A stretch of DNA of 32,385 nucleotides, taken from positions 14,509 through 46,893 of the forward strand of contig PMAM01000143.1 in assembly GCA_003152595.1 (NCBI GenBank), given 5' to 3'. The notes beneath the pieces were generated by a model, which was given only the letters and a program-made list of their open reading frames with translations, was not told where the DNA came from and did not search any database. Of this stretch, positions 2,791-32,385 are shown piece after piece; the stretch's first letter is position 1, and each line of letters starts with the position of its first letter. A program made the translations under genes and the position numbers. The stretch is from Acidobacterium sp. GTDB lineage: Bacteria; Acidobacteriota; Terriglobia; Terriglobales; Acidobacteriaceae.

Positions 2791-5700
2791 TCAGTAATAG
2801 ATTTTTACGGCCAGCTGCAGGAGACGGGGTGGGAGCGCACCGGTTAGGTATCCGAAGGTCGGCGTGCCCATAATGGTCGAATTGATGGAGTTCTGTGGCC
2901 CAGGAGCTGCGAATTGGAAGTTCGGGTGATTGAATGTATTGAAAGCCTCGGCCCGTAACTCAATGTGGCGCGCTTCGCCGAGTGGAATTTTTTTCAGCAA
3001 GGCGAAGTCTACGTTCTTTTCATTCGGCCCTTCGAGACTGTTCATACTGACGTCGCCGGTAGAACCGAGGGCCGGATTTTGAAAGGCGCAGGTATTGAAA
3101 AATGTGCCGGGAACGCAAGGCTTCGATGTGGCTTTGATACCGGGGACGAAGTCGGGACGCTGCTGACCGTCGGAGTTGGCGAAGTTCGCGTTGCCATCGG
3201 TGACTGTGAACCAGGTGCCGGACGAAAGGGTGACGATGCCGGACCAGTTCCAGTCTCCGATGATGTGGTCAACGACCGCGTTGTGGGTAGCGAGGCGGTG
3301 ACCGGTACCGAAGGGCAGATCATAGAGGTAACTCGCCACGAAGTGATTCCGCACATCGAAATCGAGGGGCCCATATTCCTGATTCGGGTAGCGGCTATTG
3401 CGAAAGCCGTCGTTATTCTGCGATCCAAGATCGGCGCTGCTGGCGTTTCCGAGCGACTTGCTGTAGGTGTAGTTGACGATGAATTCGAGCCCGCGATTAA
3501 GTCTCTGCTGGAAGGAAGTCTGAAGGCCGTTATAGTTCGACGATCCTGCAGACTTGAGATAGCCGATCGCGGCATCCACGTAGGGGAAAGGACGACGCGG
3601 GGCGGTAGGAGCGGAGGGATCAGCGGTCGGCTGGGCCTGGTTTCCGTTCAGGTAGATGTAGGAACGGTCGCTTTTGGAGCCGACATAGGCTACTTCGAGC
3701 ACCGTCTTATCCGCCAGCTGATACTGCGTGTCCAGGTGCCATTGCAGCACATAAGGCATGCGAAGGTTCAGCTGCAGGGCGAAAAGAGTGGGCGTGTTGG
3801 GATCGGTGAGCGAGTTCGCAGGAAAACCCTGGGAAAGCACGCTGATGCCGGGGACAGAACAATCTTCGGCGGCCGGAGAATACGATGGCAGGCCGCAAGG
3901 GGCGGCAAATGTCTGGCTGATGAAATAGGGGGGATTGAAGCCAGGGCTGGGATTGCTGTAGGGGCCGGCCTCATCGCCGTTGAAGAAGACGCCGAAGGCA
4001 CTCTGCACAGCCAGATGTTTGGCGGCATTCCAGGCCAGTCCAGCGCGTGGACCGAAGTCCTTGTAGTCCGATGAGATGAGCGCATTGGAAGCGTTGTGAT
4101 TCACGGGCAAGGTCGCGGCCAGGGTGGGGGTAAGGCTCACATTGCTGTCGCGTGGAATGTCGAGATTGCCGGTGACGGGATTGAAGTTTGCCTGGGCATT
4201 GTTTTTGGAATACACGGGAGAGAAGAACTCATAGCGCAGTCCCAGATTCAAAGTGAGCTGAGGCAGGACACGCCAGTCGTCCTGGGCGAAGAGCGCCCAG
4301 GTGTGGCGGTAATAATCGATATTGTTCAGGTTGTTGATATTGCCGCCATCGGGTTGGCCGGTGAGCAGGGTTGCAAGGCTGTAGCCCCCTGTTCCGGGAT
4401 CACCCGCATTGTCGGTGTAGACGTGGGTGAAGCTCATGGTGCCGCGAGGATCGGCGGGCTCATAGATGGAGAAATGCTCGGGGCGAACTTCTCCGCCGAG
4501 CTTCCAGGCGTGATGGCCGGCGATGAGAGTGAACGTATCGGATACCTGAAATGTGGTTTGCCGTTCGATGGCGGGGAGAAATGTGGGACTGCCGAGATTG
4601 GAGGCATCGCTGAAGACCAGCTGCGGCAACCCACCATTGTTGGTTCCGGCCACATAGGGAACGCCGGAAAATCCCACGGTAGCGGAGATGTTCTGGTTAT
4701 AGTTGGCCTGATAGCGGCTGGTCTTGATCCAGTTAGCGCCCACGCGAAATTCGTTCACGTTGTGCGCGGAGAAGACGTGAACTTCGTTGGCGGCGCCGCT
4801 GTAGGCGGTGATCTGCTGAATGCCGTCGAAAAATCCTCCGCCGTCGGCGTATCCAGGAAATGGCGAACCGATGTTTTCAGGCGTATTGCTGGTGCTGAAG
4901 CGATAGAAGGCGTTGTCGTGCTGGGACCAGACCTGATCGATGCGGACATCGCCCTGGTCGGCTGTTTGGGTGGTTACAGGATCGGACAGATAGTTATAGC
5001 CGACCCCGGCAGCATTGGGTGAGGGAAAGAGGTTGATCAACTTGCTGCCGAGGGAATCGATTTTTGAGGCCGGGATGATATTACTGGGCGCACCGTTGGC
5101 ATAGCCGAACGGAACTCCGCAAAAGCCGCCAGCGGTGGCCTGAGTCTGGGTGGTATCGAAGATCTCACCCTGATAGGTCTGGACGCCGTTACAGTCGGCA
5201 ACACCTGTGGGAGAGGTCAGATCGAGCAGGCTGGAAAAGTCGCCGGTTCTCTGGGCCGCCGTGGGTACGACGGATGTGATGGTTTGCGCCTGGCTGATGC
5301 GTAGTCCCTCGTAATCGACAAAGAACAGCAGTTTGTCGCGGATAATTCGGCCGCCCAGCGATGCACCGAACTGATTCTGGTGATACGGCTGACGAGCGGT
5401 ATCGAAGTAGTTCATCGCATCCATATTCTGGTTGCGCAGGAACTCATAGACGGTGCCGTGGAAGTTGTTGGTGCCGCCTTTGGTTGTGGCATTGACGATG
5501 GCGCCGGTGGATCTGCCGAACTCAGCGTCGTAGTTCCCGGTTTCGACTTTGAACTCCTGCAGGGCGTCAGGAGGAGGCATGACGACATAGTTGGCTTCGT
5601 TGAGCAGGTCGGGCAGGTTGGAATTGTTATCGACCCCATCGAGGAGAAAGTTGTTATCGAGGGAACGCGATCCGCTGGCGCTGAAGCCGAACCCGCCGCT

Positions 5701-6258
5701 GTCGCGAGCTCCGGGCTCACTGGTGGTAACACCGACGCTGAGCTGAGCGAGCTGAACAGGGTTACGGCCATTCAGGGGAAAGCCGACCATGGAGGCGCTG
5801 TCGATGACCTGCCCGGTTTCGGAGGAGTCGGTTTCCAGCAGAGGAGCGGCCCCCTGTACTTCAACCTTTTCGCTTACCTGACCCACCTGGAGGGTGACGT
5901 CGGCACGCTGGCGCTGTTGCACATCGAGCGTGATGGGGCCGACGACCGCCTGCTTGAAACCCTGGGCGGAAATAGTAAGTGTGTAGGTGCCGATGCGCAC
6001 CGGGCTGATGGCCCAGGCACCCGACTGATCGCTTCGCGCGCGGTAAGTGAGGTTGGTTGCGCTGTTGACGGCCAAAATCTGAGCATTGGGGACGACCGCA
6101 CCGGACGTATCGACGACGAGTCCTTCCAGCGAGGCGGCATCGCGTTGGGCAGAGAGGGGACAGACGGACGCTGCGAGCAGCGCCAGGAAGGCAATTCGCC
6201 GTTTAGCAAGAGCAATCGACATCTGAGAGAGCCTCCTCCATGCAGTTCTGTCGGCCAC
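2791..6258 (-). CDS. Oar-like TonB-dependent receptor with N-terminal carboxypeptidase-regulatory-like domain
   Basis: 1155 aa ORF. N-terminal signal sequence, then SLEGLVVDTSGAVVPNAQILAVNSATNLTYRARSDQSGAWAISPVRIGTYTLTISAQGFK (CarboxypepD_reg), a plug-like region (GFPLNGRNPVQLAQLS...LLDGVDNNSN) and an outer-membrane barrel with aromatic C-terminus (...LLQLAVKIYY). Confidence 0.9.
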   Translation of the reverse strand: MADRTAWRRLSQMSIALAKRRIAFLALLAASVCPLSAQRDAASLEGLVVDTSGAVVPNAQILAVNSATNLTYRARSDQSGAWAISPVRIGTYTLTISAQGFKQAVVGPITLDVQQRQRADVTLQVGQVSEKVEVQGAAPLLETDSSETGQVIDSASMVGFPLNGRNPVQLAQLSVGVTTSEPGARDSGGFGFSASGSRSLDNNFLLDGVDNNSNLPDLLNEANYVVMPPPDALQEFKVETGNYDAEFGRSTGAIVNATTKGGTNNFHGTVYEFLRNQNMDAMNYFDTARQPYHQNQFGASLGGRIIRDKLLFFVDYEGLRISQAQTITSVVPTAAQRTGDFSSLLDLTSPTGVADCNGVQTYQGEIFDTTQTQATAGGFCGVPFGYANGAPSNIIPASKIDSLGSKLINLFPSPNAAGVGYNYLSDPVTTQTADQGDVRIDQVWSQHDNAFYRFSTSNTPENIGSPFPGYADGGGFFDGIQQITAYSGAANEVHVFSAHNVNEFRVGANWIKTSRYQANYNQNISATVGFSGVPYVAGTNNGGLPQLVFSDASNLGSPTFLPAIERQTTFQVSDTFTLIAGHHAWKLGGEVRPEHFSIYEPADPRGTMSFTHVYTDNAGDPGTGGYSLATLLTGQPDGGNINNLNNIDYYRHTWALFAQDDWRVLPQLTLNLGLRYEFFSPVYSKNNAQANFNPVTGNLDIPRDSNVSLTPTLAATLPVNHNASNALISSDYKDFGPRAGLAWNAAKHLAVQSAFGVFFNGDEAGPYSNPSPGFNPPYFISQTFAAPCGLPSYSPAAEDCSVPGISVLSQGFPANSLTDPNTPTLFALQLNLRMPYVLQWHLDTQYQLADKTVLEVAYVGSKSDRSYIYLNGNQAQPTADPSAPTAPRRPFPYVDAAIGYLKSAGSSNYNGLQTSFQQRLNRGLEFIVNYTYSKSLGNASSADLGSQNNDGFRNSRYPNQEYGPLDFDVRNHFVASYLYDLPFGTGHRLATHNAVVDHIIGDWNWSGIVTLSSGTWFTVTDGNANFANSDGQQRPDFVPGIKATSKPCVPGTFFNTCAFQNPALGSTGDVSMNSLEGPNEKNVDFALLKKIPLGEARHIELRAEAFNTFNHPNFQFAAPGPQNSINSTIMGTPTFGYLTGALPPRLLQLAVKIYY

Positions 6259-8212: not shown

Positions 8213-9016
8213 ATGGCGCGAACGCAAGAGGCATTCACCGGCGAGTCCGGTCAGCTGTTGATTGAAGAGCGCCGGCAGCACATCCTCTCTCTGATTCAGA
8301 ACGAAGGCCGCGTTCTGGTGGGCGATCTATCCCGGGATCTCGGCATCTCGCAGATCACCATCCGGAAGGATCTGGAGTACCTGCAGTCCAGGGGACTGGT
8401 TCAGCGCACGCACGGCGGGGCGCTTCGCATCCAGGCCAGCGCATTGTTCGATCCATCCCTCCAGGAAAAACAGAAGCAGCATTCGCAGGAGAAGCAAAGG
8501 ATCGCTGAAGCCGCGGTGAGGATGGTGGAAGAGGGCCAGTGCGTGATGCTGGACTCGGGCACCACCACCACGGCCATAGCCCATCAGCTGAGGAAATTCT
8601 CCCATCTCACGGTGATTACCAACGCCGTGAACATCGCGGCGGAACTGGCCAGTACTAATTTCGAAGTCATCCTGATTGGCGGAAGCCTTCGCAAGAACTC
8701 GTTCTCGCTGGTTGGGCCGCTGGCCGAAGACGTACTGCAGGAAATGCACGCCGACATTCTGTTCCTCGGCGTCGACGGGTTCGATCCCGAGGTGGGACTG
8801 ACCACGCCGAACTTTCTCGAATCGCGGGTGAATCGAGCGATGGTGAAGGCCTCCCGCCGCATTGTTGCGGTTTGCGACTCGACGAAATTCGGCCGCCGAA
8901 GCCTTTCGCGGATCGTGCCGCCTACGGCAGTTCACACCGTCATCACGGACCGCAATCTTTCCGCTCAGAATGCGGAAGCGCTGCGGACGCAGAACATCGA
9001 AGTGATCACGGTTTAA
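8213..9016 (+). CDS. DeoR-family transcriptional regulator (AgaR/GlpR-like)
   Basis: LLIEERRQHILSLIQNEGRVLVGDLSRDLGISQITIRKDLEYLQSRGLVQRTHGGA (DeoR HTH signature), then DSGTTTTAIAHQL...VITNAVNIAAEL...LIGGSLRKNSFSLVGP (DeoR sensor domain). Confidence 0.92.
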   Translation: MARTQEAFTGESGQLLIEERRQHILSLIQNEGRVLVGDLSRDLGISQITIRKDLEYLQSRGLVQRTHGGALRIQASALFDPSLQEKQKQHSQEKQRIAEAAVRMVEEGQCVMLDSGTTTTAIAHQLRKFSHLTVITNAVNIAAELASTNFEVILIGGSLRKNSFSLVGPLAEDVLQEMHADILFLGVDGFDPEVGLTTPNFLESRVNRAMVKASRRIVAVCDSTKFGRRSLSRIVPPTAVHTVITDRNLSAQNAEALRTQNIEVITV

Positions 9017-19822: not shown

Positions 19823-21835
19823 TCACTTCTCTGTCCGATTCGCTTCCAGATATTCGATGTATCCAAGCAAGGCGCCCCAGTGATAAAAACGATCGCTGTT
19901 GCGCACATCGTCGCCGGTGCCGCTGATGGCGTTGTAGTTCTCGTGGACATGGCGGTGCTCCGACCACTCCTTCAGAAACAGGGCGTACGATTTCTGCGCG
20001 AACTCCTGGCGCGCAGCAGGGTCATCGTAGTTACAAAGGCCGAGATACACGAGGTAGTTCATTGGTCCCCAGATCCGGCCGCGCCAGTAATCCTGATCAT
20101 GAAAGGCCGGGTCGTCGCGCTCGATAGAAGGAATCACCCACTGTCCCCAGAACTGGTCCGGGTTCAGCAGGTGCTTCTCGATCATGATGTGCGCCTGCTC
20201 GGGCGTGGCGGCGCGGGCCAACAGAGGATAAAAATTCGTCGGCGAAAGCCGCGTGCTTGATTGCCCGGTGTGCAGGTCCTTATTCAGGAAGATGCCCTCC
20301 TGATCGCTCCAGAGCGTCGAGAGCTTCACCCGATAGCGGGCGGCGCGGTCCTTCAACTCTCTTTCGATCTCCGGTTTGCTCAGTACCTGCGCCATTTCAG
20401 CGAGCGCTTCGCAGTCGGTGATGTACAGGCTCATCAGGCCGACGTCGGCATACTCGAGTACGTGCTTCTGCGCATTGTAGGCGGCGGTATCGTACATCGG
20501 GCTGTTGTCGAGGCCGGACTCAAGAATCGCGCCGGCGCGCGTCCCGCGTGAGTCGTCATCGAGATTTGCGGGGAGATTCTCGCCGTCGCTGCCCCAGGCG
20601 AGATAGCCGTCTATGTCGCGATGCGCCGCCCACCATCGGTTCCAGCGCAGCAACGGTTCGAACGCGTCCTCAAGGAACCAGCGGTCGTTAAATTTCCGAT
20701 AGAGCCCCAGCACGCTGATTGCACCGACCGGCGGCTCCGAGCGATCGAAGCTCTTCCACTCGCCGCCGCGCGCGTAGTTGGGTACAAAGCCCTCAGCCGT
20801 TGCCTCGCGCAGCGTCTCCATGGCATTGGCATAGGCGAGGTCGTGGTTGCCGATCCCCGCCATCGTCGCGGCGAAAAAGTTATCCCAGTCAAAGATCACA
20901 TACCCGCCCCACCCCACACTCCACACGCGGCTCACCGGGGATACGACGCGCTCGCGGCTCGGCTCGTAGATCGTGTCCCAGCCCAGCGTGGTCTCGATCG
21001 CGTCCACAATCGGCCCGTTCTTGCCGACCGCGTGAATGGAATCCTCGTAAGCCTGCCGCTGACTGTCGATTGCTGCCTCAATCTCGCCCAGCGTCCGGCG
21101 TTTGCCGGTGCTAACGCCGACTGGCCCAGTGAGATTGGCGGAGAACCAGGAACCGCCGGTGGGCATATCGATCTGCTCGCGCGCCGGCTCAGATCCAGCG
21201 GGCGCACACGTGCAAAAGACCGGAATCGACCCCGCGGGGCTCTGCGCCTCGATGAAGTCGCTGCGACGCATCGTTGTGCCGGGCCGGTTCCACAGGAAAT
21301 CCACGGTGAAAATGATGGCGGGAGGAAGAGCCGACTCCCGGTTGCCGGGCAAGGGAGTTGCCAGAATTACCACATCGCTGCCGTCGTGCGCGCTCTGCAT
21401 CCGCCATTCGTGCCCGTGCCATGCCACGCGGAGATCGGTGTAGCTGCCCTCCCACGAGTGCGGCCCTGGCGTCACTTGTTCGGCGCCCGGGATCAGCCTC
21501 CCGATCAGCGCATCCTGCAGAAACGCGTCGCTGCCTTCGGTCGTGTTGTGCTTCAATCCTGCGTGGATCGCGAGGCCCTCGGGCAAAAGCACCTGGGTGA
21601 TTACGCTGTGCACATCCCAGGTGTTCCAGCCCTGGGCCAGGCGCTGCTGCACCTGGCGGTACTCAGCGGATTCCGCCGGTGGCAACGCCTGGCCCGGAGC
21701 GATTCGCGAACCGACGGTCGGAGTCTGCGCCTGCGGACTGCAGGACAACCCCATGCCAGCTACCAGGACTGCCAGAGCGTCGCGCGCTACACCGCGCAAC
21801 CGCGTCACTCGATTCAAGCTCCCCTCCGGTTGCAC
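19823..21835 (-). CDS. GH63-like (MGH1-type clan GH-G) secreted glycosidase, possible lipoprotein
   Basis: 670 aa. Lipobox-like GMGLSC near the N-terminus. WGGYVIFDWDNFFAATMAG, GLDNSPMYD, YWRGRIWGPMNYLVYLGL, HVHENYNAISGTGDDV match the (alpha/alpha)6 GH63/MGH1 catalytic core. Confidence 0.75.
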   Translation of the reverse strand: MQPEGSLNRVTRLRGVARDALAVLVAGMGLSCSPQAQTPTVGSRIAPGQALPPAESAEYRQVQQRLAQGWNTWDVHSVITQVLLPEGLAIHAGLKHNTTEGSDAFLQDALIGRLIPGAEQVTPGPHSWEGSYTDLRVAWHGHEWRMQSAHDGSDVVILATPLPGNRESALPPAIIFTVDFLWNRPGTTMRRSDFIEAQSPAGSIPVFCTCAPAGSEPAREQIDMPTGGSWFSANLTGPVGVSTGKRRTLGEIEAAIDSQRQAYEDSIHAVGKNGPIVDAIETTLGWDTIYEPSRERVVSPVSRVWSVGWGGYVIFDWDNFFAATMAGIGNHDLAYANAMETLREATAEGFVPNYARGGEWKSFDRSEPPVGAISVLGLYRKFNDRWFLEDAFEPLLRWNRWWAAHRDIDGYLAWGSDGENLPANLDDDSRGTRAGAILESGLDNSPMYDTAAYNAQKHVLEYADVGLMSLYITDCEALAEMAQVLSKPEIERELKDRAARYRVKLSTLWSDQEGIFLNKDLHTGQSSTRLSPTNFYPLLARAATPEQAHIMIEKHLLNPDQFWGQWVIPSIERDDPAFHDQDYWRGRIWGPMNYLVYLGLCNYDDPAARQEFAQKSYALFLKEWSEHRHVHENYNAISGTGDDVRNSDRFYHWGALLGYIEYLEANRTEK

Positions 21836-21874: not shown

Positions 21875-24361
21875 CTAGCGCATGGCCGTCTCGCCACCCG
21901 CTTCAGTTCTTAGCGCCGCGGCCGTGCCGTGGATCACTTCCAGCAGTTCGCTATCCGGTTGGGTCCAGGCCGCAGCGCCGCTGTGCGTCAGACGCTGCGC
22001 CTGATCCTCCCAATGCAGCTTTGTGACCTCGCCGCCCGTTTTCTCATACCCATAAGTCTCGCCATCGTCCTGGTACAGCGCAAAATCCGCGTCCGCGCCC
22101 GGCCACACTTGTATCTTCGCAATGACTTGCTTCAACTCCGCGTTCGCGGCCGGAGGTCCCAGCGGCAGGATCGATCCCGCGCGCACAAAGAGCGGCAGCG
22201 TATCGATAGGAGCGTTCACGGTGATGCTCTGGCCACCGTGGTACCGCTCTTTTGTCCAGTAGTTGTACCAGTCCGCACCGGCTGGCAGATAAACGTCGCG
22301 GCTGGTTGCACCTTGTTCGGAAACCGGAGCAACCAGCAGAGCCGGCCCATACATATACTCATCCGGGATATTCGCAGCCTTCGGATCTCCGGGGAAATCC
22401 ATGAAAAGAGCCCTCATATAAGGGGCCCCGGTCTGGTAGCTCCGATAGGCAAGGGAGTAGGTATAGGGAAGAAGTTGGTGACGCAGCTTCAGATACTTCG
22501 CGAGGATTGGCTCCGCCTGTTTCCCGTAGGACCATATCTCGTTATGCATCCTCTCGCCGTGCGCCCGCATGACCGGCTGGAACGAGCCCCACTCGAACCA
22601 CCGCACAAACAATTCAGGATAGTCTTCGTAATTTCCAATCGTTCCCCGCACGTCCGATCCGTCAATCAGTGGTCTGTGCGCAGCATGATAGTCAGCCGGG
22701 ATCGGCGGCGAGAAGAACCCCGCGATGTCCGTATCCCAGTAGGGCAGACCGCTTGCGGTGAAGTTCAGACCTGCCGGGATCGAGCGCTTCAGCATGTCCC
22801 AGGTCGAAATAATATCGCTCGACCAGAACACGGTGCCGTTCCGCTGCGCGCCCAGATAGGCAGCCCGCGCCAGAATCATGACCCGTCGGCTGTCGCCAAA
22901 ATCCCGCCGGAAGCCCTCGTACACCGACGCGGTATGAAAGAGCGGATAGACGTTATAAAAGCGAGTGCCGGAGCCGATCGAGAAAACGTCCTTCGCCGGG
23001 TCAATATCCGGCTCTGTCTCATCCAGCCAGAGGTAATCGAAACCGTCCGGCTTGACATACCGGTCACGAATCTTTTCCCAGAACCACTTCGCCGCCTCGG
23101 GATTGGTCGTGTCGATATTGGGTCCGATCGTGTCCCGGAAGTGTCCCGAATCCGGCTTCCCGTCCGGTGTATGGATGAGCCATCCTTTGCTCTGCAACAT
23201 GTCGTAGAACTGTGTCCCGGGTGCAAAGTGCGGCCACACGCTGAGCAACGTCCTCACATCCATCGCATGCAGTTCACGATTCATCGCAGCCGGATCGGGC
23301 CAGCGTTTCGGATCGAGGTCCATCTCGCCCTGGCGCGTCATGTTCAGGAAGTCCACCACGATAACGTCCAGCGGCAGATTCCTCTCGCGATATCCCTTCG
23401 CTACATCCAGAATCTGTTCCTGGGTCGGGTAGATCGCCTTGCTCTGGATGTACCCATAAACTCCCCGTGACAACATATGCGTCACGCCGGTCAGCAGCCG
23501 ATAGCCCTCGTAAATTTCATCGCTGGTCTGCCCGGCAATGACGAAATACGACACCCGGTCTCCAACCTCTGACGACCACATATTCCGGCCATTGAATCCA
23601 AGATCGACGGTCGTTTTCGATGGGTTGTCCCACAGCAAGCCGTAGCCGCCACTGGAGACCATAAACGGAACGCACACATCCTGGCCGCCGATTGCCGAAT
23701 AGTCGTGCCAACAGCGAATTTCGTGATCGCGCAGGTCCATCCAGCCCTTTTGTTCCTGCCCGAGTCCGTAGTAGTGCTCGTCGGCGGGCGAGTCAAACAT
23801 GGCCCCCACCCGGTACCCTTTATCCGCAGCGTCCGCCTGGGCTACTTCCGGACTTTCCGGCGCCATCATCCAGGTGCGCATTTGTAGCAGCGTCTTGCCG
23901 TCCGCCGTTGTCACCCGCAACGCATCATTGTGCGGAGCGTTCCCGCGGCCCCCTCCTCCGAAATACTGCTGGCGCAGCTGTCGATTCAGATCATCCAGCG
24001 GCATCGAATTAGGCAGTTTGTCTGCTGGCAGCTCGCCCGGCGCCACGCGCACCACCATTTGCGCCGATCGATACACGTCGCCACCGTCCGCATCCCGATC
24101 ATGGGTCCATCCCTCTGCCGACGGCTGCGCCACGATCCCGTATCCCGGCGCGCCGGTCGCACCGGCCTTATCGATGCTGAGTGTTATCCGCAGAACGTTG
24201 GGGGCATAAGGAACGAGCGAAATCACTCGCCCCTGCCTCTCCAGCACGAGTGGCCCGCTGGGGCCCGCACTTTCCTGGGCGACGAGTGGATACGCCAGCA
24301 GGATCATGCCAGCAACAGCAATCACCGCTGAAAGGAGAACTCTCCGAGGACCTTTCTTCAT
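21875..24361 (-). CDS. GH31 alpha-glucosidase/alpha-xylosidase-like
   Basis: 828 aa, signal peptide. LDVIVVDFLNMTRQGEMDLDPKRWPDP, FDYLWLDETEPDIDP (nucleophile region), GTVFWSSDIISTWDMLKRSIPAGLNFTASGLPYWDTDIAGFF (acid/base region), ERMHNEIWSYG. Confidence 0.88.
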   Translation of the reverse strand: MKKGPRRVLLSAVIAVAGMILLAYPLVAQESAGPSGPLVLERQGRVISLVPYAPNVLRITLSIDKAGATGAPGYGIVAQPSAEGWTHDRDADGGDVYRSAQMVVRVAPGELPADKLPNSMPLDDLNRQLRQQYFGGGGRGNAPHNDALRVTTADGKTLLQMRTWMMAPESPEVAQADAADKGYRVGAMFDSPADEHYYGLGQEQKGWMDLRDHEIRCWHDYSAIGGQDVCVPFMVSSGGYGLLWDNPSKTTVDLGFNGRNMWSSEVGDRVSYFVIAGQTSDEIYEGYRLLTGVTHMLSRGVYGYIQSKAIYPTQEQILDVAKGYRERNLPLDVIVVDFLNMTRQGEMDLDPKRWPDPAAMNRELHAMDVRTLLSVWPHFAPGTQFYDMLQSKGWLIHTPDGKPDSGHFRDTIGPNIDTTNPEAAKWFWEKIRDRYVKPDGFDYLWLDETEPDIDPAKDVFSIGSGTRFYNVYPLFHTASVYEGFRRDFGDSRRVMILARAAYLGAQRNGTVFWSSDIISTWDMLKRSIPAGLNFTASGLPYWDTDIAGFFSPPIPADYHAAHRPLIDGSDVRGTIGNYEDYPELFVRWFEWGSFQPVMRAHGERMHNEIWSYGKQAEPILAKYLKLRHQLLPYTYSLAYRSYQTGAPYMRALFMDFPGDPKAANIPDEYMYGPALLVAPVSEQGATSRDVYLPAGADWYNYWTKERYHGGQSITVNAPIDTLPLFVRAGSILPLGPPAANAELKQVIAKIQVWPGADADFALYQDDGETYGYEKTGGEVTKLHWEDQAQRLTHSGAAAWTQPDSELLEVIHGTAAALRTEAGGETAMR

Positions 24362-26808
24362 CGCCGAACCTCTACCGTAGTTTCTTTTCCGTCATAGCTG
24401 ATGGTGCGATTCGCCCTGGCGGTCACAGCTTCTCCCGCACCGTGGCCCTTTGCGACAAGCACAACGTGGAAATCCATCTTCGGGGGCATGCCGGGATATG
24501 AACCCCGACGCTCCCCTATCGTCAGGCTTGAGGTCTTGTCATCCCAGTGCATCGGGATCAGAGCGCGCTCGCCTTTCTCATAGGCATATCCGTCGCCGGC
24601 ATCCTGGTACAGGTTGAAGTCGCCATCGGCTCCGGCATAGATGCGCAGCTCCACCGGACCGGCCGGGTCCTGTTCCGCGTACTCGATCTCCGGCCCCATG
24701 GGAAGGATGGAACCAGCGCGCACGTAAAGAGGCATGCGGTCCAGTGGCGCGGCGACTTCAATTTGCTCTCCGCCTTTTGTTGTTCCTCCCGTCCAGAAGT
24801 CGTACCAGAGCGCGCTGCCGGGAAGATACACCGTCCTGGTCGCAGCGTTTGCTTTCAGAACTGGGTTCACCAGGAACGCAGGGCCGAACATGAACTGATC
24901 GCCGATGTTCCATGTGTTGGGATCCGAGCGCCAGTCCATTACCAGGGGCCGCTGCATAGTGTAGTCCTCGCTGCTGACTTTCCACGCGAGGGAATAGATG
25001 TAAGGCATTAGACGGTAGCGCAGCCTATCCCAGGTGATAAGGATGGGCTCGACATTTTCATAAGTCCAGATCTCGTTTTGCGGGCGGTGGCCGTGGCTGC
25101 GAAAGATCGGACAGAACACGCCGAACTCAAACCAGCGCGCGTAGAGCTCCTGATAGTCGGCGATCTCAGTTTTGCCTTCGTATGCGGGCCAGTAGCCGCC
25201 GATGTCCGTTGTCCAGTAGGGATACCCGGAGAGTGCGAAGTTCAGTCCAGCAGGGACCTGGTGGCTGAGTCCCCAGTAAGTGCTGTAAACATCGCCGGAC
25301 CAAACCGTTGCGCCGACGCGCTGCTGTCCCAGAAAGGCCGAGCGGGTCAGTAAAAAGACCCGCTTTTGATCTGAGGCCGCTTTCCAGTGCTCCTGAACGC
25401 CGAGCGTGTGCATGAGCGGGAAAATGTTGGTGTACTCCGCCCCGTTGCCAATGGCAAGTTGTTTGCTGCGCAGGATCGCGTCCCCAAAATGCGGCCAGTA
25501 TTCCTCGGGCTCGGCGCTGTCCAGCCAAAACGCGTCCCAGCCCTGGGACAGCAATTTTCCCACCAGATGATTCCAGTAAATATCTCGAGCCCCGGGATTC
25601 GTAGCATCGTAGACGTGTGCGCCGGGAACAAGATCGTGCTGGTCGTCCAGTACTTTGTAAGTCTCGGAGGCGGGATCCAGAAGACCCCAGACCGAGATCA
25701 TCGCATGCACATGTTCCTGGTGCAGTACGTCCAGGTCCTTCGGTACATCGTGATAATTGGCGTTGAAGATGGGATCGCCTTCGGTCTTCCACCAGAACCA
25801 GTCCTGAACCATCGCATCCAGAGGAATGTGCTCATCACGATAGCGTTTCGCGATCTCCTGAATTTCGTCCAGGGAGACATATCGATCCTTCGACTGGAAG
25901 AAACCGAAAGCCCACTTTGGAAGCATGGGAGCATGGCCCGTCATGCTTCGGTACTGATGGATGATATTGTCCATCTCCGGTCCGTAGATGACGTAGTAGT
26001 CCACAGCCGGCCCGGCAATCGAGCTGAATTTCAGTTCCAGAGGGAAACGGTTATCGACATAGGTCAGCGCCGCCGTGTTCCACAGGATTGCATAGCCCTT
26101 GCTGGAGACGAGCAACGGAATCGCGACGTCGGTATTGTCCTGTCCGAGTTCAACAGTAGCCCCTCGATAATTGAACAACCCGCTTTGGTGTTGCCCCAGT
26201 CCGTAGAACGCCTCGGTTGCGTCCGGCGCGAAGCGGTCGGTTATTTGCCAGGTGTGCTCTCCGTTCAACTCAACGGGCTCGTAGGTGCGTGGTATGCCTT
26301 CTCCTTCATGGAGGAGCGCCGTGCCTCCAACCTGAAAGAAGCTGATATTGCCTCGAGTAAGGGAGAAATCCACTCGCAGCTGTCCGGTCGTCAGCGACGC
26401 CGCCTTATCACTCTTTGCGAACTGGAAAGGCGCTCCGGGGCAGGATTGCTGCGCATCGAGCATCCAGGGGCGCGCCATTTTCCCCGAGAGTGGTCCGTTT
26501 GGACTAGCCACAACATGGATCGCCGAACCCATACAAACGGAAATTTCGACGACCTCACTACCCACCGTGGCTCGCATTCCATGTTCCGACTGCGCAACCA
26601 CAATCGTTGGCTGATCCGGTATGGATTGCCCAGGCATCTGTCCTTTGGCGTCGGGTGGGACGGCCAGGGCTAACGCGAAAAGTGCGATGACCAAAAGTGC
26701 AGGCCTCGCGACCGCCTCCCCGCAAGGAGTTCCGCTCGTTTCAACCCTCATCGTCTGGCCCATCCTCTGACTCAAAACAGCGCCGGGCACCATACTCGCG
26801 TGAGACAT
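24358..26808 (-). CDS. GH31 alpha-xylosidase/alpha-glucosidase-like
   Basis: 816 aa. LDAMVQDWFWWKTEGDPIFN, WDAFWLDSAEPEEYWP, GATVWSGDVYSTYWGLSHQVPAGLNFALSGYPYWTTDIGGYW, GHRPQNEIWTY. Stop overlaps the start of the downstream GH31 gene by 4 nt (ATGA). Confidence 0.88.
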   Translation of the reverse strand: MSHASMVPGAVLSQRMGQTMRVETSGTPCGEAVARPALLVIALFALALAVPPDAKGQMPGQSIPDQPTIVVAQSEHGMRATVGSEVVEISVCMGSAIHVVASPNGPLSGKMARPWMLDAQQSCPGAPFQFAKSDKAASLTTGQLRVDFSLTRGNISFFQVGGTALLHEGEGIPRTYEPVELNGEHTWQITDRFAPDATEAFYGLGQHQSGLFNYRGATVELGQDNTDVAIPLLVSSKGYAILWNTAALTYVDNRFPLELKFSSIAGPAVDYYVIYGPEMDNIIHQYRSMTGHAPMLPKWAFGFFQSKDRYVSLDEIQEIAKRYRDEHIPLDAMVQDWFWWKTEGDPIFNANYHDVPKDLDVLHQEHVHAMISVWGLLDPASETYKVLDDQHDLVPGAHVYDATNPGARDIYWNHLVGKLLSQGWDAFWLDSAEPEEYWPHFGDAILRSKQLAIGNGAEYTNIFPLMHTLGVQEHWKAASDQKRVFLLTRSAFLGQQRVGATVWSGDVYSTYWGLSHQVPAGLNFALSGYPYWTTDIGGYWPAYEGKTEIADYQELYARWFEFGVFCPIFRSHGHRPQNEIWTYENVEPILITWDRLRYRLMPYIYSLAWKVSSEDYTMQRPLVMDWRSDPNTWNIGDQFMFGPAFLVNPVLKANAATRTVYLPGSALWYDFWTGGTTKGGEQIEVAAPLDRMPLYVRAGSILPMGPEIEYAEQDPAGPVELRIYAGADGDFNLYQDAGDGYAYEKGERALIPMHWDDKTSSLTIGERRGSYPGMPPKMDFHVVLVAKGHGAGEAVTARANRTISYDGKETTVEVRR

Positions 26809-26831: not shown

Positions 26832-26889
26832 AGGGAGAAATGACGGGAGGCGGTTGTCATCTCTCCCTCTCACGGAGGGAATCTCCCTC
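26832..26889 (-). promoter_or_regulatory. Tandem hairpins between the Oar-like receptor gene and its downstream GH31 genes
   Basis: AGGGAGAAATGAC (26832-26844) pairs 12/13 with GTCATCTCTCCCT (26856-26868), 11-nt loop. Also perfect GAGGGA-ATC-TCCCTC (26875-26889). Confidence 0.6.
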
Positions 26890-29800
26890 AGAAGCTCGCA
26901 CGCAAATGGAACTGCAGATAGCGTGCGGGCAACTGATTCTGGGAGTGCCCGAAAGCACTGGCAGAGCTATTAAGATCGGCATTGACGCCTGTGAGGTTAA
27001 CTCGATTGAACAGGTTGGTGACCTCACCGCGAGCCTCGATCCTCATCTTCTCACTGAAGAACCAGGGCACGTCGAAGAACTTCTCAAAGGTGAAATCGAG
27101 ATTGTTATAACCGGGCCCGTCGTAAGTGCCACGCCCCAGGTTTCCCTCCTGTCCCAGAGAAGGGGCCGGGAAGGCGGAAGCTCCCGCCGAACCGAAGATC
27201 CCCTGCAGGAACTTCTTGTTGCTCACACCGCTCAGACGCCGTCCAAAGCTCGGGGCGTTGGGGATGTCATAGTTAGTCCCGTCGGCGTTGTAGTCCCCAC
27301 CCGTGTTGCCGACGACGTTGCCACCCGCATCGAAGACCGGGGCAAAGGGCGCACTCGTCGTTACGGTAAAAGGCAGGCCCGACGCCATGACCCAGACACC
27401 GCTGAACTGCCAGCCACCGAGAGTGTTGCGTTCGAACGCGTTCCCATAGTGGTTCGGCACAATCCAGTCACCATCCGCGGTGACCTGCTGATGGATACTG
27501 AAGTCTGCGCGGCCGCGCTGATACTTCAGATTCTGCCAGTCGACCACGCCCGTAGTGGTTGTGATGGCTCCCGCGTCAAGCGAGTCGGACTGGCTCACTT
27601 CGTCGAGTGTCTTGCCCAGGGTATAGATGCCGCGCAGGGCGAAGCCATGGGCAAGGCGGCGAGTCGCAACGGCAGAGCCATAGTTGCCCACGGAATTGCT
27701 GGTGGAACTGGCGTACTCGACAGATCCGAAATATGGACTTAGCCGCTCAAGAGTGCCCTTATTAACGATAAGGTCGCCGGCAAATCGGTTGATGCCATTG
27801 TCGTCTTCCACCGGCAAGTGATGGGCTTCAGTGCCGGAATAGTTCAGTTCGACTACGAGATCGCTTTGCACCTGTTGCTGTACGCTCAGCGTCCATGCTT
27901 CGATCTGGGTTAGCTTGAAATTCGTGCTATAGCCATTCACATTGGCGCGGCTGCCCGGGACCGCGCCGAAGGAGTTGAGCGTGATGTTGCTGGTGTCTAC
28001 GATCGGGCAGTTCTCGTTATAGCCGTTCGGAGCGGAACATAGCTGGAACGCAGGCATGGGCTGCCCGGATTTCACGTTGATCGATGGAGTGTAATAGTTC
28101 GGCAAATTCGCCGAGATGAGGTCGGTGATGTGCAGGTAGGGCGGCTGATCGGAGAACAATCCGGCGCCCGCGCGGACGGCCGTTTTCCCGTTCCCACGTA
28201 CATCCCAGGCAAAACCGAGCCGGGGGTTGAACGCCCAGAGATTGTGATCGAGCACATGCGTCGTACCGGTCAAAACCGCCTTGCCGTTGGCAACCTGGCT
28301 GTTGAGCGTCGATCCCGTGCCAAGAATGAAGTTCGTTTCGGTCGGGGTTTCGATGTCGAAGTAATTATTCATCTCGTCATAGCGAATGCCTGCGTTGAAG
28401 GTGAACCGAGGCTTCACTTTCCAGGCATCCTGCAGGTAGTACGCCTGGTAGAAGGCCCGATAGCGGCGGTCATAAGGACCTTCCTGGTGAGTGGTGAGGC
28501 TGACCGGCGTCGCATTTTCACTGGTGGCTTCGCTTTGGACGAAATCCAGAAGATTCTGGAAATTGTAGGTCGGGCGATCGAAGGCACTGCTCTGGTTGTC
28601 GATTTCGCGAATGTCGAACATTTCGGTGCCGAACTTAAGAGTGTGCGTCCTCAGGGTCGCGGTCATCACATCGTGCCACCCATAGGTGGACTGAATGAAG
28701 TTACCTGCACCCCAGTTCGAGAATCCGTTCAGAGAACTGACATTGATATAGGGAATTTCCTCCAGAGCTGTTGGCAGGTCAGCACCCTGGGGCCGAATCA
28801 GATCTGCGCCCGCCTCGTTCAGGAGAGTTGGTGTAAAAGTGTGGGTCCAGTTGAGGTTGACAAAGTCAGAGGAGTTCGCCTGGGGAATATTCAGCACCGG
28901 CCGGCCAATGTTGCTCAGGCCGGTATCGTAAGTGCGCATCGCGTCGACGTAGATGCGGTCGGACTTCGTCAGGTAGTCATCGACGCGGAAGCTCCATTGA
29001 TAACCGTTCTTGGGGGCGGTGAAACTGATATTCGAGGTACCGACAGCATTCAGACTGCCCGGGATGCCGGGGGGCGGAGCGTAATAGCCGGGTACGGAGG
29101 ATTCCAGCTGGCTAACTGTCAGAAAGCCGGACGACGGGAAGTTGAGAGGCGGCGCTTCAAGAAGAATCTGTGCTCCGAGACTGTTGGGCAGATTGGCTTT
29201 GGCCCAGGTGTCGAAGTCCTGGGTCTCGAATGTGCCCTGGTAAGACGTTGTTTGACCGGAACGAAGCACGTCGATGGCTCCGAACCAGAAGAGCTTGTTC
29301 TTAAGGGCTGGACCGCCAATGGTGGCGCCCACCTGATTCCGCGTGAAAGGCGAAACCAGGGTCTGAAACTCGGTGCGGGCGCTCAGCGAATTGTTGAGGA
29401 AGTAGTAGTCGAAGGTTCCGTGGATGTCATTGGTGCCGGAACGGGTGTAGACATCGACGATGGCGCCCCCGTTTCTTCCCTTCTGAGCGTCGAAGGAGTT
29501 GGTTTCGATATTGATCGACTGCACGATTTCCGGATTGGGAGAGATAGAACTGGCCCCGCCGCGGGACGGCGTGTTGGTAAAGGCACCGTCAATCATGTAG
29601 CCGTTTTCTTCCTGACGAAGGCCCGCGGCGTTGATGTTGATCGAGTACTCGTTGGTATAGTTGTCGCCGGCGGTGACAGCGGTGCCAGTCACGCCAGGGG
29701 TAATGGAGGCCAACGCATAGACGTTTTGACCCGGCAAGGGCACCTGTTCGACCGTGGCTTCGCCGATGACGGCTCCTGTGTCGGGAGTGGTAAGGTCCAC

Positions 29801-30181
29801 CGACTCGGCCGCGGCCGAAACAGTGACATTGGTGGACACGGCTCCAATCTTGAGGACCGGCGTAATTTCGCGAACCTCTCCGGCCTGGAGGTCGAGATCG
29901 GTCTGCCGCCAGGTTTCAAAACCATTGGCCTGGATCTGGACGGTGTAGTTGGAGGCGCCGATACTGTCGATGCGGAAGTAGCCGACCTGATTGGTGCTGG
30001 TGGTCTTGGTGACCCCGAGCCGCGTGTCGGTGACCGTGACCGTGGCGCCCGACACGACCGCGCCGCTGGAGTCGTGGGCTGTACCTTCAATGCCGCTGGA
30101 GTATTGAGCCAGAGCTGCTGCGCAGCTCACAACGGCGAAGACGAACAGCAGCGTCACTTTTTTCAGAGAAGCGTTTCTCAC
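26888..30181 (-). CDS. Oar-like TonB-dependent receptor with N-terminal carboxypeptidase-regulatory-like domain
   Basis: 1097 aa. Signal peptide, SSGIEGTAHDSSGAVVSGATVTVTDTRLGVTKTTSTNQVGYFRIDSIGASNYTVQIQANGFETW, plug-like VPLPGQNVYALASITPGV...MIDGAFTNTPSRGG, barrel, terminal YLQFHLRASF. Confidence 0.92.
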   Translation of the reverse strand: MRNASLKKVTLLFVFAVVSCAAALAQYSSGIEGTAHDSSGAVVSGATVTVTDTRLGVTKTTSTNQVGYFRIDSIGASNYTVQIQANGFETWRQTDLDLQAGEVREITPVLKIGAVSTNVTVSAAAESVDLTTPDTGAVIGEATVEQVPLPGQNVYALASITPGVTGTAVTAGDNYTNEYSININAAGLRQEENGYMIDGAFTNTPSRGGASSISPNPEIVQSINIETNSFDAQKGRNGGAIVDVYTRSGTNDIHGTFDYYFLNNSLSARTEFQTLVSPFTRNQVGATIGGPALKNKLFWFGAIDVLRSGQTTSYQGTFETQDFDTWAKANLPNSLGAQILLEAPPLNFPSSGFLTVSQLESSVPGYYAPPPGIPGSLNAVGTSNISFTAPKNGYQWSFRVDDYLTKSDRIYVDAMRTYDTGLSNIGRPVLNIPQANSSDFVNLNWTHTFTPTLLNEAGADLIRPQGADLPTALEEIPYINVSSLNGFSNWGAGNFIQSTYGWHDVMTATLRTHTLKFGTEMFDIREIDNQSSAFDRPTYNFQNLLDFVQSEATSENATPVSLTTHQEGPYDRRYRAFYQAYYLQDAWKVKPRFTFNAGIRYDEMNNYFDIETPTETNFILGTGSTLNSQVANGKAVLTGTTHVLDHNLWAFNPRLGFAWDVRGNGKTAVRAGAGLFSDQPPYLHITDLISANLPNYYTPSINVKSGQPMPAFQLCSAPNGYNENCPIVDTSNITLNSFGAVPGSRANVNGYSTNFKLTQIEAWTLSVQQQVQSDLVVELNYSGTEAHHLPVEDDNGINRFAGDLIVNKGTLERLSPYFGSVEYASSTSNSVGNYGSAVATRRLAHGFALRGIYTLGKTLDEVSQSDSLDAGAITTTTGVVDWQNLKYQRGRADFSIHQQVTADGDWIVPNHYGNAFERNTLGGWQFSGVWVMASGLPFTVTTSAPFAPVFDAGGNVVGNTGGDYNADGTNYDIPNAPSFGRRLSGVSNKKFLQGIFGSAGASAFPAPSLGQEGNLGRGTYDGPGYNNLDFTFEKFFDVPWFFSEKMRIEARGEVTNLFNRVNLTGVNADLNSSASAFGHSQNQLPARYLQFHLRASF

Positions 30182-30484
30182 TTGTTACCTCCCAAAAATG
30201 CGTGCTCTCCAGGCTTGCCGACGCGCCTTTTGCGTGAAAGCGGGCGGAGCCGGGGAAACGCTTACCATCCCAGGGCGCACGTCGAACTCCACCTTTGGAT
30301 GGAATTCCGGCCGCGCCCACCGTAGTGACCATGACCGGAACATGCAAGTATTGGACGGTTAAATACGGTACCGCCCGTGCTTCGTTCGCCGTCCGAGATG
30401 GACCGTAAGCCTTTAGAGATCAACAGAACCAGCCGATGATCTTTCCTCGACCGGCCCAGGAGTGCCAACCCCGTCTGGTTTTGC

Positions 30485-30490
30485 TATAGT
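30485..30490 (+). promoter_or_regulatory. Putative extended -10 element for the 30515 gene
   Basis: TGC-TATAGT ending 24 bp before ATG 30515, with GGAGG at 30498-30502. The candidate -35 (GTGCCA, 30462-30467) is weak. Confidence 0.4.
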
Positions 30491-30514
30491 TCCGAGCGGA
30501 GGCCGGGTGGCTTT

Positions 30515-31885
30515 ATGGCTGGTTCTGTTAAAGACCACGAACCTCTGGCTCCCAACCCCCATTCGGCCCCGGAATCCAGCGAGGCACAGGCGGTGATCCT
30601 CAGTGAGCTGGAGAAAATCCTGGCAAGCCCCCATTTTCGGGGCAGCAACCGCCGTAAGGAATTCCTTTCCTACGTCGTTCACCACAGCCTCGAAGGCCAA
30701 CATGAGCAGCTGAAAGAGCGGATCATCGGTGCCGAAGTTTTCCACCGCGATGCCGATTACGCCACCGGAGACGACCCGGTAGTCCGCGTGCAGGCGGGAG
30801 AAGTCCGCCGTCGGCTGGAGCAGTACTATTACAGCGCCCCGCCCGATCTTCCGGTCCGCATCGAGATTCCCATCGGCTCTTACTGTCCGACATTTCACTG
30901 GAGAGATTCCGCTTCGGCTGGAACGCCTCCGCAATTCGCTGCCCCCCACCCGCCGCACCCATCGGTCCATGAGCCGATCACTGATTCGGGTCCTGAACTC
31001 CATGTACCTCAGCCACAGGGGCCAACACCTGCTGCATCGACCAACAAATCGCCGTGGATCTTCGGCATCACGGGGCTGGTGCTGATCGCAGCCGCTGTTG
31101 CATTTTTCGCGTTCGAGCATGGCCACAAGCCCCCGGCAACGCCACTCGATGTCTTCTGGTCGCCGGCACTACAGTCCTCGCAGCCCGTTATCATTTGTCT
31201 GGCCAAGCCCGTCGTCTATCGTCCCAGCGACGAGATGTATGAGCGCTATGCCCGCACCCATCCCGGCAGTTTCCAAACCGAGGCCGAGCGCGATAACCAG
31301 GTCCTGCCGCTTCCCCCATCAGAAAGAATGACCTGGGGAGACATGCAGATTTATCCCGGCTACGGCGTGGCCAGCGGCGATGCATTCGCCGCAGTGCAAA
31401 TTTCGAATCTGCTCGTCCGCATGGGAAAGACCAGCCAGGTTCGCATTGGCAACAGCTACTCCTTTGAGGACCTGCGTACCTCTCCCGCGGTAGTCCTCGG
31501 CGCATTCAATAATCGATGGACCATGCAGCTGACCTCGAATCTGCATTTCGCCCTGGTCTACCACGTGGGCATTCAGGAGCAGGGTTCCAAAGGCCGTCTC
31601 TGGGAGTCGCAGTACGAGCCCGGCAAGGGATACTCGGCCGACTACGGCGTAATCACTCGCCTGCTCGACGCGAAAAGCGGGCAGTTCCTGGTCTCGGCCG
31701 CCGGTATCGGGTCGCCGGGTACGCAGGCTGCGGGCGAGCTGATTTCCAACCCGGCTTATCTCAATGAAGTTCTTCGCACCGCGCCACCGGACTGGAGCCG
31801 CAGGAACATGCAGGTTGTCGTCCAGACCAGCGTCATCGACTCCATTCCAGGACCGCCGCACGTGGTGGCCAGCTATTACTGGTAG
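30515..31885 (+). CDS. Membrane-anchored protein of unknown function: acidobacterial N-terminal module, one TM helix, extracytoplasmic domain
   Basis: ILSELEKILASPHFRGSNRRKEFLSYVVHHSLEGQHEQLKERIIGAEVFHRDADYATGDDPVVRVQAGEVRRRLEQYYYSAPPDLPVRIEIPIGSYCPTFHW, then TM IFGITGLVLIAAAVAFFAFEH, then a roughly 250-aa C-terminal domain. Confidence 0.8.
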   Translation: MAGSVKDHEPLAPNPHSAPESSEAQAVILSELEKILASPHFRGSNRRKEFLSYVVHHSLEGQHEQLKERIIGAEVFHRDADYATGDDPVVRVQAGEVRRRLEQYYYSAPPDLPVRIEIPIGSYCPTFHWRDSASAGTPPQFAAPHPPHPSVHEPITDSGPELHVPQPQGPTPAASTNKSPWIFGITGLVLIAAAVAFFAFEHGHKPPATPLDVFWSPALQSSQPVIICLAKPVVYRPSDEMYERYARTHPGSFQTEAERDNQVLPLPPSERMTWGDMQIYPGYGVASGDAFAAVQISNLLVRMGKTSQVRIGNSYSFEDLRTSPAVVLGAFNNRWTMQLTSNLHFALVYHVGIQEQGSKGRLWESQYEPGKGYSADYGVITRLLDAKSGQFLVSAAGIGSPGTQAAGELISNPAYLNEVLRTAPPDWSRRNMQVVVQTSVIDSIPGPPHVVASYYW

Positions 31886-31996
31886 CACCCGCAAACGGCC
31901 GACGCTCTGCCGCTCGCCGACCGATCCGCTTCGGCTCTCACAGATAGCGTTTCCCTGGCCGTCGGGAACGATTATGATGTGGGCTTGGTCTCCGTC

Positions 31997-32385
31997 ATGC
32001 GTACCGGCCGGCGTGGTTTTCTTCATCTCTCTTTGGCAACCATCGCGGCCACAATCGCCGGTCGCTCCGCGGCGCAGCGGCAGCAACTCGGCGGGATGGG
32101 TGGACGCGTAGCGGCGGCTCAGGCGAAACCCAAACAGTCCGGACGCCCCTTCGACGCGCACTTTGTGGATGTCTCGGCATCCGCCGGTCTCACCGCGCCG
32201 GTTGTTTATGGTGGCGTCGATCACAAGGAATTCATTATTGAGGCCAACGGTTGCGGCTGCGCTTTCCTCGACTATGACAACGACGGTTGGCTCGATATTT
32301 TTCTGCTGAGCGGAACCCGGCTCGAAGGCGCCCCTCCCGGCGCTACCAATCGCCTCTACAGGAACAATCGCGATGGCACCTTTAC
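31997..32385 (+). CDS. CRTAC1 / FG-GAP-VCBS repeat protein with Tat-like signal, 3' truncated by the window edge
   Basis: Manual translation: MRTGRRGFLHLSLATIAATIAG...FDAHFVDVSASAGLTAPVVYGGVDHKEFIIEANGCGCAFLDYDNDGWLDIFLLSGTRLEGAPPGATNRLYRNNRDGTF, open at 32385. Confidence 0.82.
   Translation, partial: MRTGRRGFLHLSLATIAATIAGRSAAQRQQLGGMGGRVAAAQAKPKQSGRPFDAHFVDVSASAGLTAPVVYGGVDHKEFIIEANGCGCAFLDYDNDGWLDIFLLSGTRLEGAPPGATNRLYRNNRDGTF

Follow-up and report, generated by a model that had tools for sequence, protein, structure and literature searches.

The window analysed here, a 32,385-nt stretch of the genome of a soil Acidobacterium sp. (GCA_003152595.1, contig PMAM01000143.1, 14,509-46,893 of the forward strand), carries a gene with an ATG start at 30515..31885 (plus strand) that was found by open reading frame (ORF) calling and family searches and encodes a 456-aa transmembrane (TM) protein. 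Our data make it highly probable that this protein is a membrane-integrated one-component transcription regulator, with a predicted DNA-binding module inside and a sensor outside the inner membrane. A 333-bp intergenic region (30182..30514, from the ORF coordinates) separates the gene from a divergent operon on the minus strand whose genes are its predicted targets: an Oar-type TonB-dependent receptor (26888..30181; Pfam OMP_b-brl_4, E 9e-115, and CarboxypepD_reg) followed by, on Pfam assignment, two GH31 alpha-glycosidases (24358..26808 and 21875..24361) and an MGH1/GH63-like hydrolase (19823..21835). An earlier sequence-only reading of this DNA had described an N-terminal module of about 110 residues, one TM helix and a large extracytoplasmic domain without a family. 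All of these are present (by ORF, AlphaFold2 (AF2) model and the lack of a Pfam, NCBIfam or PDB match), the peptide it quoted is found in the ORF, and the 333-bp gap and the divergent receptor operon are as it described them.

Relatives of the protein and their gene neighbourhoods

The pairing with a receptor recurs well beyond the window. In two complete genomes, where a profile of the N-terminal module (N-module) detects 22 and 20 copies, a divergent receptor is the upstream neighbour of 15 of the 42 module genes, compared with a mean of 0.53 and a maximum of 4 in 2000 trials of random placement. This count is a lower bound because it took in no more than the 61 best receptors of each genome. 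The neighbourhood survey called for by the sequence-only reading thus gives a strong receptor association in unbiased whole genomes. A divergent receptor lies within 1 kb in 38 of the 78 named loci with enough upstream sequence, and two further module copies of the window's own genome are divergent to a receptor. The window's order of regulator, receptor, GH31, GH31, GH63 is retained in two related loci, L037 and L038, and a GH31 gene is nearby in 16 of the 20 nearest loci vs 2 of 60 further ones. Across these loci gene order varies (divergent, co-directional or split), yet gene content persists.

Within the order, relatives of the protein are present in 46 out of 60 genomes (up to 28 matches in one), far more than chance would give, and the richest acidobacterial genomes hold 20-28 family copies. 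The window's genome has six copies of the N-module, five intact and one that reads as a truncated frame. Of the 80 nearest loci in a GTDB-wide scan, almost every one has an Acidobacteriota label (one record is named 'Nevskia soli'), and at least 78 of the 80 have the same C-terminal domain (C-domain). The statement in the sequence-only reading that the same N-module is fused to varied C-termini is borne out: a paralogue in the own genome (L005:307-1878, minus strand) has the N-module and a TM segment with Malectin (PF11721, E 2e-31) in place of the C-domain, and in plasmid-encoded proteins of rhizobia and Azospirillum the module is followed by TM, TolB/FlgO-like and TPR segments. The latter arrangement is known from CadC-like proteins that have Trans_reg_C in the module's place. 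Rhizobial plasmid genes of this type (L134:3929-5734, L139:3791-5605 and similar ones) are labelled 'adenylate cyclase', a label that looks wrong and that we rejected, because no cyclase domain was found in them, nor in the window protein. Proteins so labelled (WP_038497254.1, WP_275027864.1) share the N-module with the window protein and differ from it in the C-terminal part. Viral contigs contained no family member, and the open literature yielded no description of the family, most subscription journals being outside the search.

Predicted architecture of the protein

Neither Pfam, NCBIfam nor PDB sequences gave a match to the protein over its whole 456 aa. The full-length AF2 model, built from the window protein and 24 relatives, has a predicted local distance difference test score (pLDDT) of 85, with 92-97 in the N-module; disorder is predicted at residues 1-16 and at ~133-178, a linker, and the last ~250 residues are modelled with confidence as an alpha/beta domain. 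Model and hydropathy agree on a single TM helix at residues 181-203 (31055..31123, plus strand; mean Kyte-Doolittle up to 2.5), with no second hydrophobic candidate in the protein, and no signal peptide was seen. Among 78 relatives, 52 have a surplus of lysine and arginine (K/R) on the N side of this helix and 12 have equal numbers on both sides; the window protein itself is even (1 vs 1). The cytoplasmic placement of the N-module in the sequence-only reading is also what we predict, since it fits the lack of a signal peptide and the N-side K/R surplus in relatives. The predicted layout is bitopic, with a cytoplasmic N-terminal domain, one TM helix and a periplasmic C-terminal domain.

Modelled alone from 14 sequences, the N-module (residues ~20-130, or ~22-129; 30572..30904, plus strand) reaches a pLDDT of 96.9 and a predicted TM-score (pTM) of 0.89. 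The order of elements is helix, helix, short helix, long helix and beta-hairpin, which includes the alpha1-alpha2-alpha3 and hairpin-wing order. The long helix before the hairpin carries the near-invariant R91, R98 and R100 in alignments of relatives and is the putative recognition helix (residues 89-107, VVRVQAGEVRRRLEQYY region; 30779..30835, plus strand), and the hairpin would be the wing (residues 114-129, VRIEIPIGSYCPTF; 30854..30901, plus strand). The beta1-beta4 platform, a feature of CadC/OmpR-type domains (PMC5430869), is missing from the models, a helix and no strands standing there instead. Of 50 module sequences, three match PF00486 (Trans_reg_C) at E <= 1 (best E 1.9e-4), and no other family has more than two matching members. 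The module from Shinella scores 20.0 bits against PF00486 over residues 59-122, the cut-off being 26.2 bits. When a profile of the 50 modules was aligned by hhalign with a profile of 14 Trans_reg_C domains from the same genome, helix fell on helix and wing on wing, with a score of 18.3 vs a maximum of 15.3 in 60 column shuffles and 11.8 for the reversed profile. In the structure check proposed in the sequence-only reading, a search for winged-helix folds, the module is helical with a C-terminal hairpin, and its best-ranked Foldseek matches are all winged helices, namely ScpB, DNA-bound RpaA of the OmpR family (prob 0.60, E 0.55) and, slightly lower, Sap1, none of them significant. These weak signals, with the CadC-like arrangement of the plasmid proteins, suggest that the N-module may be a winged helix of the OmpR/CadC type that has diverged and lacks the customary beta-sheet platform. 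Because the signals are weak but concordant and the platform is missing, we call it winged-helix-like and leave OmpR descent undecided.

The C-domain (residues 208-456; 31136..31882, plus strand), a predicted periplasmic alpha/beta sensor domain, is without a named family. Its best Foldseek matches are the cellulose synthase protein BcsB (probability 0.96, E 0.009) and N-terminal domains of GH67/GH115 enzymes, all of these matches being weak, with poor TM-scores. Together with the Malectin domain in one own-genome copy, they make it plausible that the C-domain senses a saccharide-related signal.

A candidate operator and other features of the window

A conserved predicted operator in the 333-bp intergenic region supports control through it, as the sequence-only reading had supposed. 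In the intergenic alignment of the window, L037 and L038, a 25-bp island, CAAGTAnTGGACGGTTAAATACGGT, is conserved amid poorly conserved DNA and includes ACGGT-N5-ACGGT. The exact motif occurs 16 times in 1.32 Mb of locus DNA, and 13 of these copies, which include the three motif-source loci and some near-copies of each other, fall within 420 bp ahead of module genes, a zone that makes up 2.6% of this DNA. Among all 5-mers combined with spacers of 2-9 it ranks first (13 regions, the next, in overlapping frames, reaching 5). The relaxed form ACNGT-N5-ACNGT is present in 15 of 64 non-redundant upstream regions, where its frequency in the remaining DNA of these loci would predict 0.37, and the pair is specific to spacer 5, other spacers in 0-20 giving at most 3. 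An iterative position weight matrix matched 41 of the 64 regions and was not used as evidence, having been trained on the same regions.

The full element in the window's clade, OP1, reads ACNGT-N5-ACNGT-N4-TACTTG, with tandem half-sites 10 bp apart, and is represented by 23 sites (19 distinct sequences); wherever the locus was examined, the element points toward a receptor gene or an enzyme gene. TACTTG holds a TTG at the -35 position, and in many loci a -10-like hexamer comes 17 nt later. The window's copy, which we regard as a candidate operator of the regulator, lies at 30345..30369 on the minus strand and reads ACCGTATTTAACCGTCCAATACTTG toward the receptor, with half-sites at 30365-30369 and 30355-30359. 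Its ACTTG overlaps the -35 of a putative receptor promoter (30319..30347, minus strand; TTGCAT at 30347-30342, 17 nt and a weak -10, TACGGT, at 30324-30319). A putative regulator promoter, GTGCCA-N17-TATAGT with an extended -10 TG, lies at 30462..30490 (plus strand) and is kept in L037 and L038.

Extended OP1 accompanies 17 of the 21 members of the regulator's clade. The own genome (5.3 Mb) has a single OP1, that of the window, even when one mismatch is allowed, and 150 genomes of the order contain 5 exact sites, all at regulators of the window's clade. As about 5 would be expected by chance (14 specified bases, ~0.7 Gb, even base use) and the reversed pattern occurs twice, the argument is one of location and not of number. 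Two same-genus genomes without a close regulator are also without OP1. The site also goes with relocated genes, since it precedes the relocated receptor in L049 and L054, the relocated GH31 in L053 and, in L191, a separate GH63 gene that shares 70% identity with the one in the window. It is hardly credible that the conserved island is the receptor's core promoter and nothing else. TACTTG does fit a -35 element, but the strictly spaced ACNGT pair lies upstream of it, no other receptor promoter in the same genomes has the pair (there is one exact site in the own genome), and a different regulator clade is accompanied by a different motif.

That different motif, OP2 (CGTANNATAC), was scanned in the 480 bp upstream of module genes in a sister clade found among L064-L114, where 16 of 21 non-redundant upstream regions contain it vs 0.06 expected. 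It is present even where no receptor adjoins (L078, L088, L091, L094, L108 and L114), so the site follows the regulator. No upstream region of the OP2 clade has the ACNGT pair, none from the window's clade has CGTANNATAC, and in a maximum-likelihood regulator tree OP1 and OP2 fall on opposite sides of one branch (SH-like approximate likelihood ratio test, SH-aLRT, 96). ACNGT as a family-wide operator was rejected, as distant paralogues of the two complete genomes have it in 1 of 40 regions vs 0.4 expected; we take the operators to be clade-specific. In a third regulator clade (L068, L069, L081-L083, L085, L086 and L090; its aligned members have the helix IVRVKATEVRRRL), exact ACGGT-N5-ACGGT likewise lies upstream, around a spacer that differs in sequence. 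Of the indirect evidence that the site is read by the N-module, the co-variation of operator and regulator is the strongest. It also bears on the proposal that the N-module binds a cytoplasmic protein partner, such as a sigma or anti-sigma factor, and that the operator belongs to a co-working regulator. The lack of a significant Foldseek match to a known DNA-binding fold and of a Pfam helix-turn-helix match in the window protein would suit such a partner. However, we consider it very unlikely, given that operator type tracks regulator clade across a supported branch, that OP2 persists without an adjoining receptor, that the predicted recognition helix carries conserved arginines and that no other regulator gene was seen in common among the loci, of which a part was annotated.

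Downstream of the regulator and co-directional with it, an ASPIC/UnbV FG-GAP protein gene starts at 31979-32383 (plus strand), where the window end cuts it; this neighbour is kept in L037, L038, L051, L052, L055, L056 and L191 at 68-88% identity. The window also has a second Oar-type receptor at 2791-6258 (minus strand) and a DeoR/AgaR-type regulator gene at 8213-9016 (plus strand) beside melibiase-like and GH2 genes, which suggests a separate galactoside locus.

Proposed mechanism, known systems and significance

What can be read from the DNA itself is the architecture, as a prediction, the receptor pairing, the candidate operator and its geometry, its co-variation with regulator clade and its presence at relocated targets. 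In the mechanism that we propose, the periplasmic C-domain would sense a saccharide-related signal, which would cross the single TM helix and change the dimerisation or DNA binding of the N-module. The N-module would bind the tandem half-sites of OP1, probably cooperatively, as OmpR/PhoB proteins do on direct repeats (PMC4832192). From just upstream of, and overlapping, the receptor -35, it would most likely activate the receptor-GH31-GH31-GH63 operon in class-II style. A one-component regulator that represses the divergent operon, and possibly itself, until released by ligand could use the same site, which is common to the divergent pair and overlaps the -35, where a bound repressor would block polymerase too. 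We find repression the unlikely option, because half-sites upstream of the -35, the last one at it, with a poor -10 at 17 nt, are the usual activator-dependent layout, as known from PhoB and CadC.

The idea of a ToxR/CadC-style regulator, advanced in the sequence-only reading, is supported by the topology, the model, the receptor pairing and the predicted operator, and a computational search for a periplasmic N-module, an unrelated fold or a lack of receptor association encountered none of them. Assignment of the protein as a ToxR/CadC-like one-component regulator with an unnamed predicted DNA-binding module is strongly supported by computation. Several observations weigh against it. Foldseek finds no significant match for the N-module in the PDB (E >= 0.46), the window's N-module is below every Pfam cut-off, including that of PF00486, and the alignment with Trans_reg_C has an HH probability of only 4%, so that the winged-helix assignment is built on several weak signals; the family profile had only chance matches in the PDB. 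For the C-domain, Foldseek gave no match at E <= 0.001, the likeness to BcsB and GH67/GH115 being weak. On the operator side, four of the 21 clade members are without OP1 in the sequence examined, the window's receptor promoter has a poor -10, and ACNGT is missing upstream of most distant paralogues. Because the half-site is palindromic, direct repeats would look the same as inverted ones at OP1.

ToxR-like regulators (CadC, ToxR, TcpP) are also membrane-integrated one-component proteins without a receiver domain (PMC5936718, PMC5430869), and the window protein has no phosphoryl-acceptor receiver domain, nor any Pfam domain. It differs from them in the missing beta1-beta4 platform and Pfam-level match of its module, in its unnamed C-domain and in the pairing of its family with Oar-type TonB receptors and glycoside hydrolases. 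The OmpR-type DNA-binding domain, a criterion of the ToxR-like family, is lacking at the Pfam level. With the OmpR/PhoB winged helix (PF00486) the module shares the helix-helix-long helix-hairpin order, the alignment register and, as predicted from the operator, tandem sites about one helical turn apart, but it has an extra N-terminal helix in place of the beta-sheet, and its predicted ACNGT half-sites with 5-bp spacing differ from the 7 bp + 4 bp of PhoP (PMC4832192). The chances are about even that the protein is a plain, divergent member of the ToxR/CadC group with an OmpR-type winged helix and needs no new name, a classification compatible with our regulator model. The bitopic layout is the same, a few members match PF00486 weakly and the predicted tandem 10-bp operator resembles OmpR/PhoB direct-repeat sites (PMC4832192), whereas the platform (PMC5430869) is replaced by a helix in the model and 47 of 50 members are without a PF00486 match at E <= 1.

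The gene setting recalls another group of systems. In Bacteroidota, regulators of polysaccharide utilization loci (SusR and hybrid two-component systems) provide a dedicated membrane sensor-regulator beside a TonB receptor/glycoside-hydrolase operon. The likeness lies in the gene setting; their domain layout differs from that of the one-component protein described here. A more far-reaching view, which we hold to be possible but rather doubtful, is that of an undescribed phylum-scale superfamily of transmembrane transcription factors with a DNA-binding module that has its own fold and does not derive from OmpR, many members having their own TonB receptor and each clade its own operator. It would be the Acidobacteriota counterpart of SusR and the hybrid two-component systems, and its periplasmic domain may read receptor-delivered glycans via a BcsB-like carbohydrate-associated fold.

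Acidobacteriota are among the commonest soil bacteria, and little is known about how the expression of their many glycan-import genes is controlled. The regulator would work like a known kind, ToxR/CadC (PMC5936718), with a module new at the Pfam level, and we rate its interest as high because the family is numerous, unnamed and testable. No Pfam or NCBIfam model covers this family, which reaches 20-28 copies in the richest genomes and has been widely overlooked. It can be tested at once since a predicted DNA site, predicted target genes and a receptor partner are in hand. The finding would suggest a function for many genes now labelled 'hypothetical' or mislabelled 'adenylate cyclase', and would offer substrate prediction from regulator clades.
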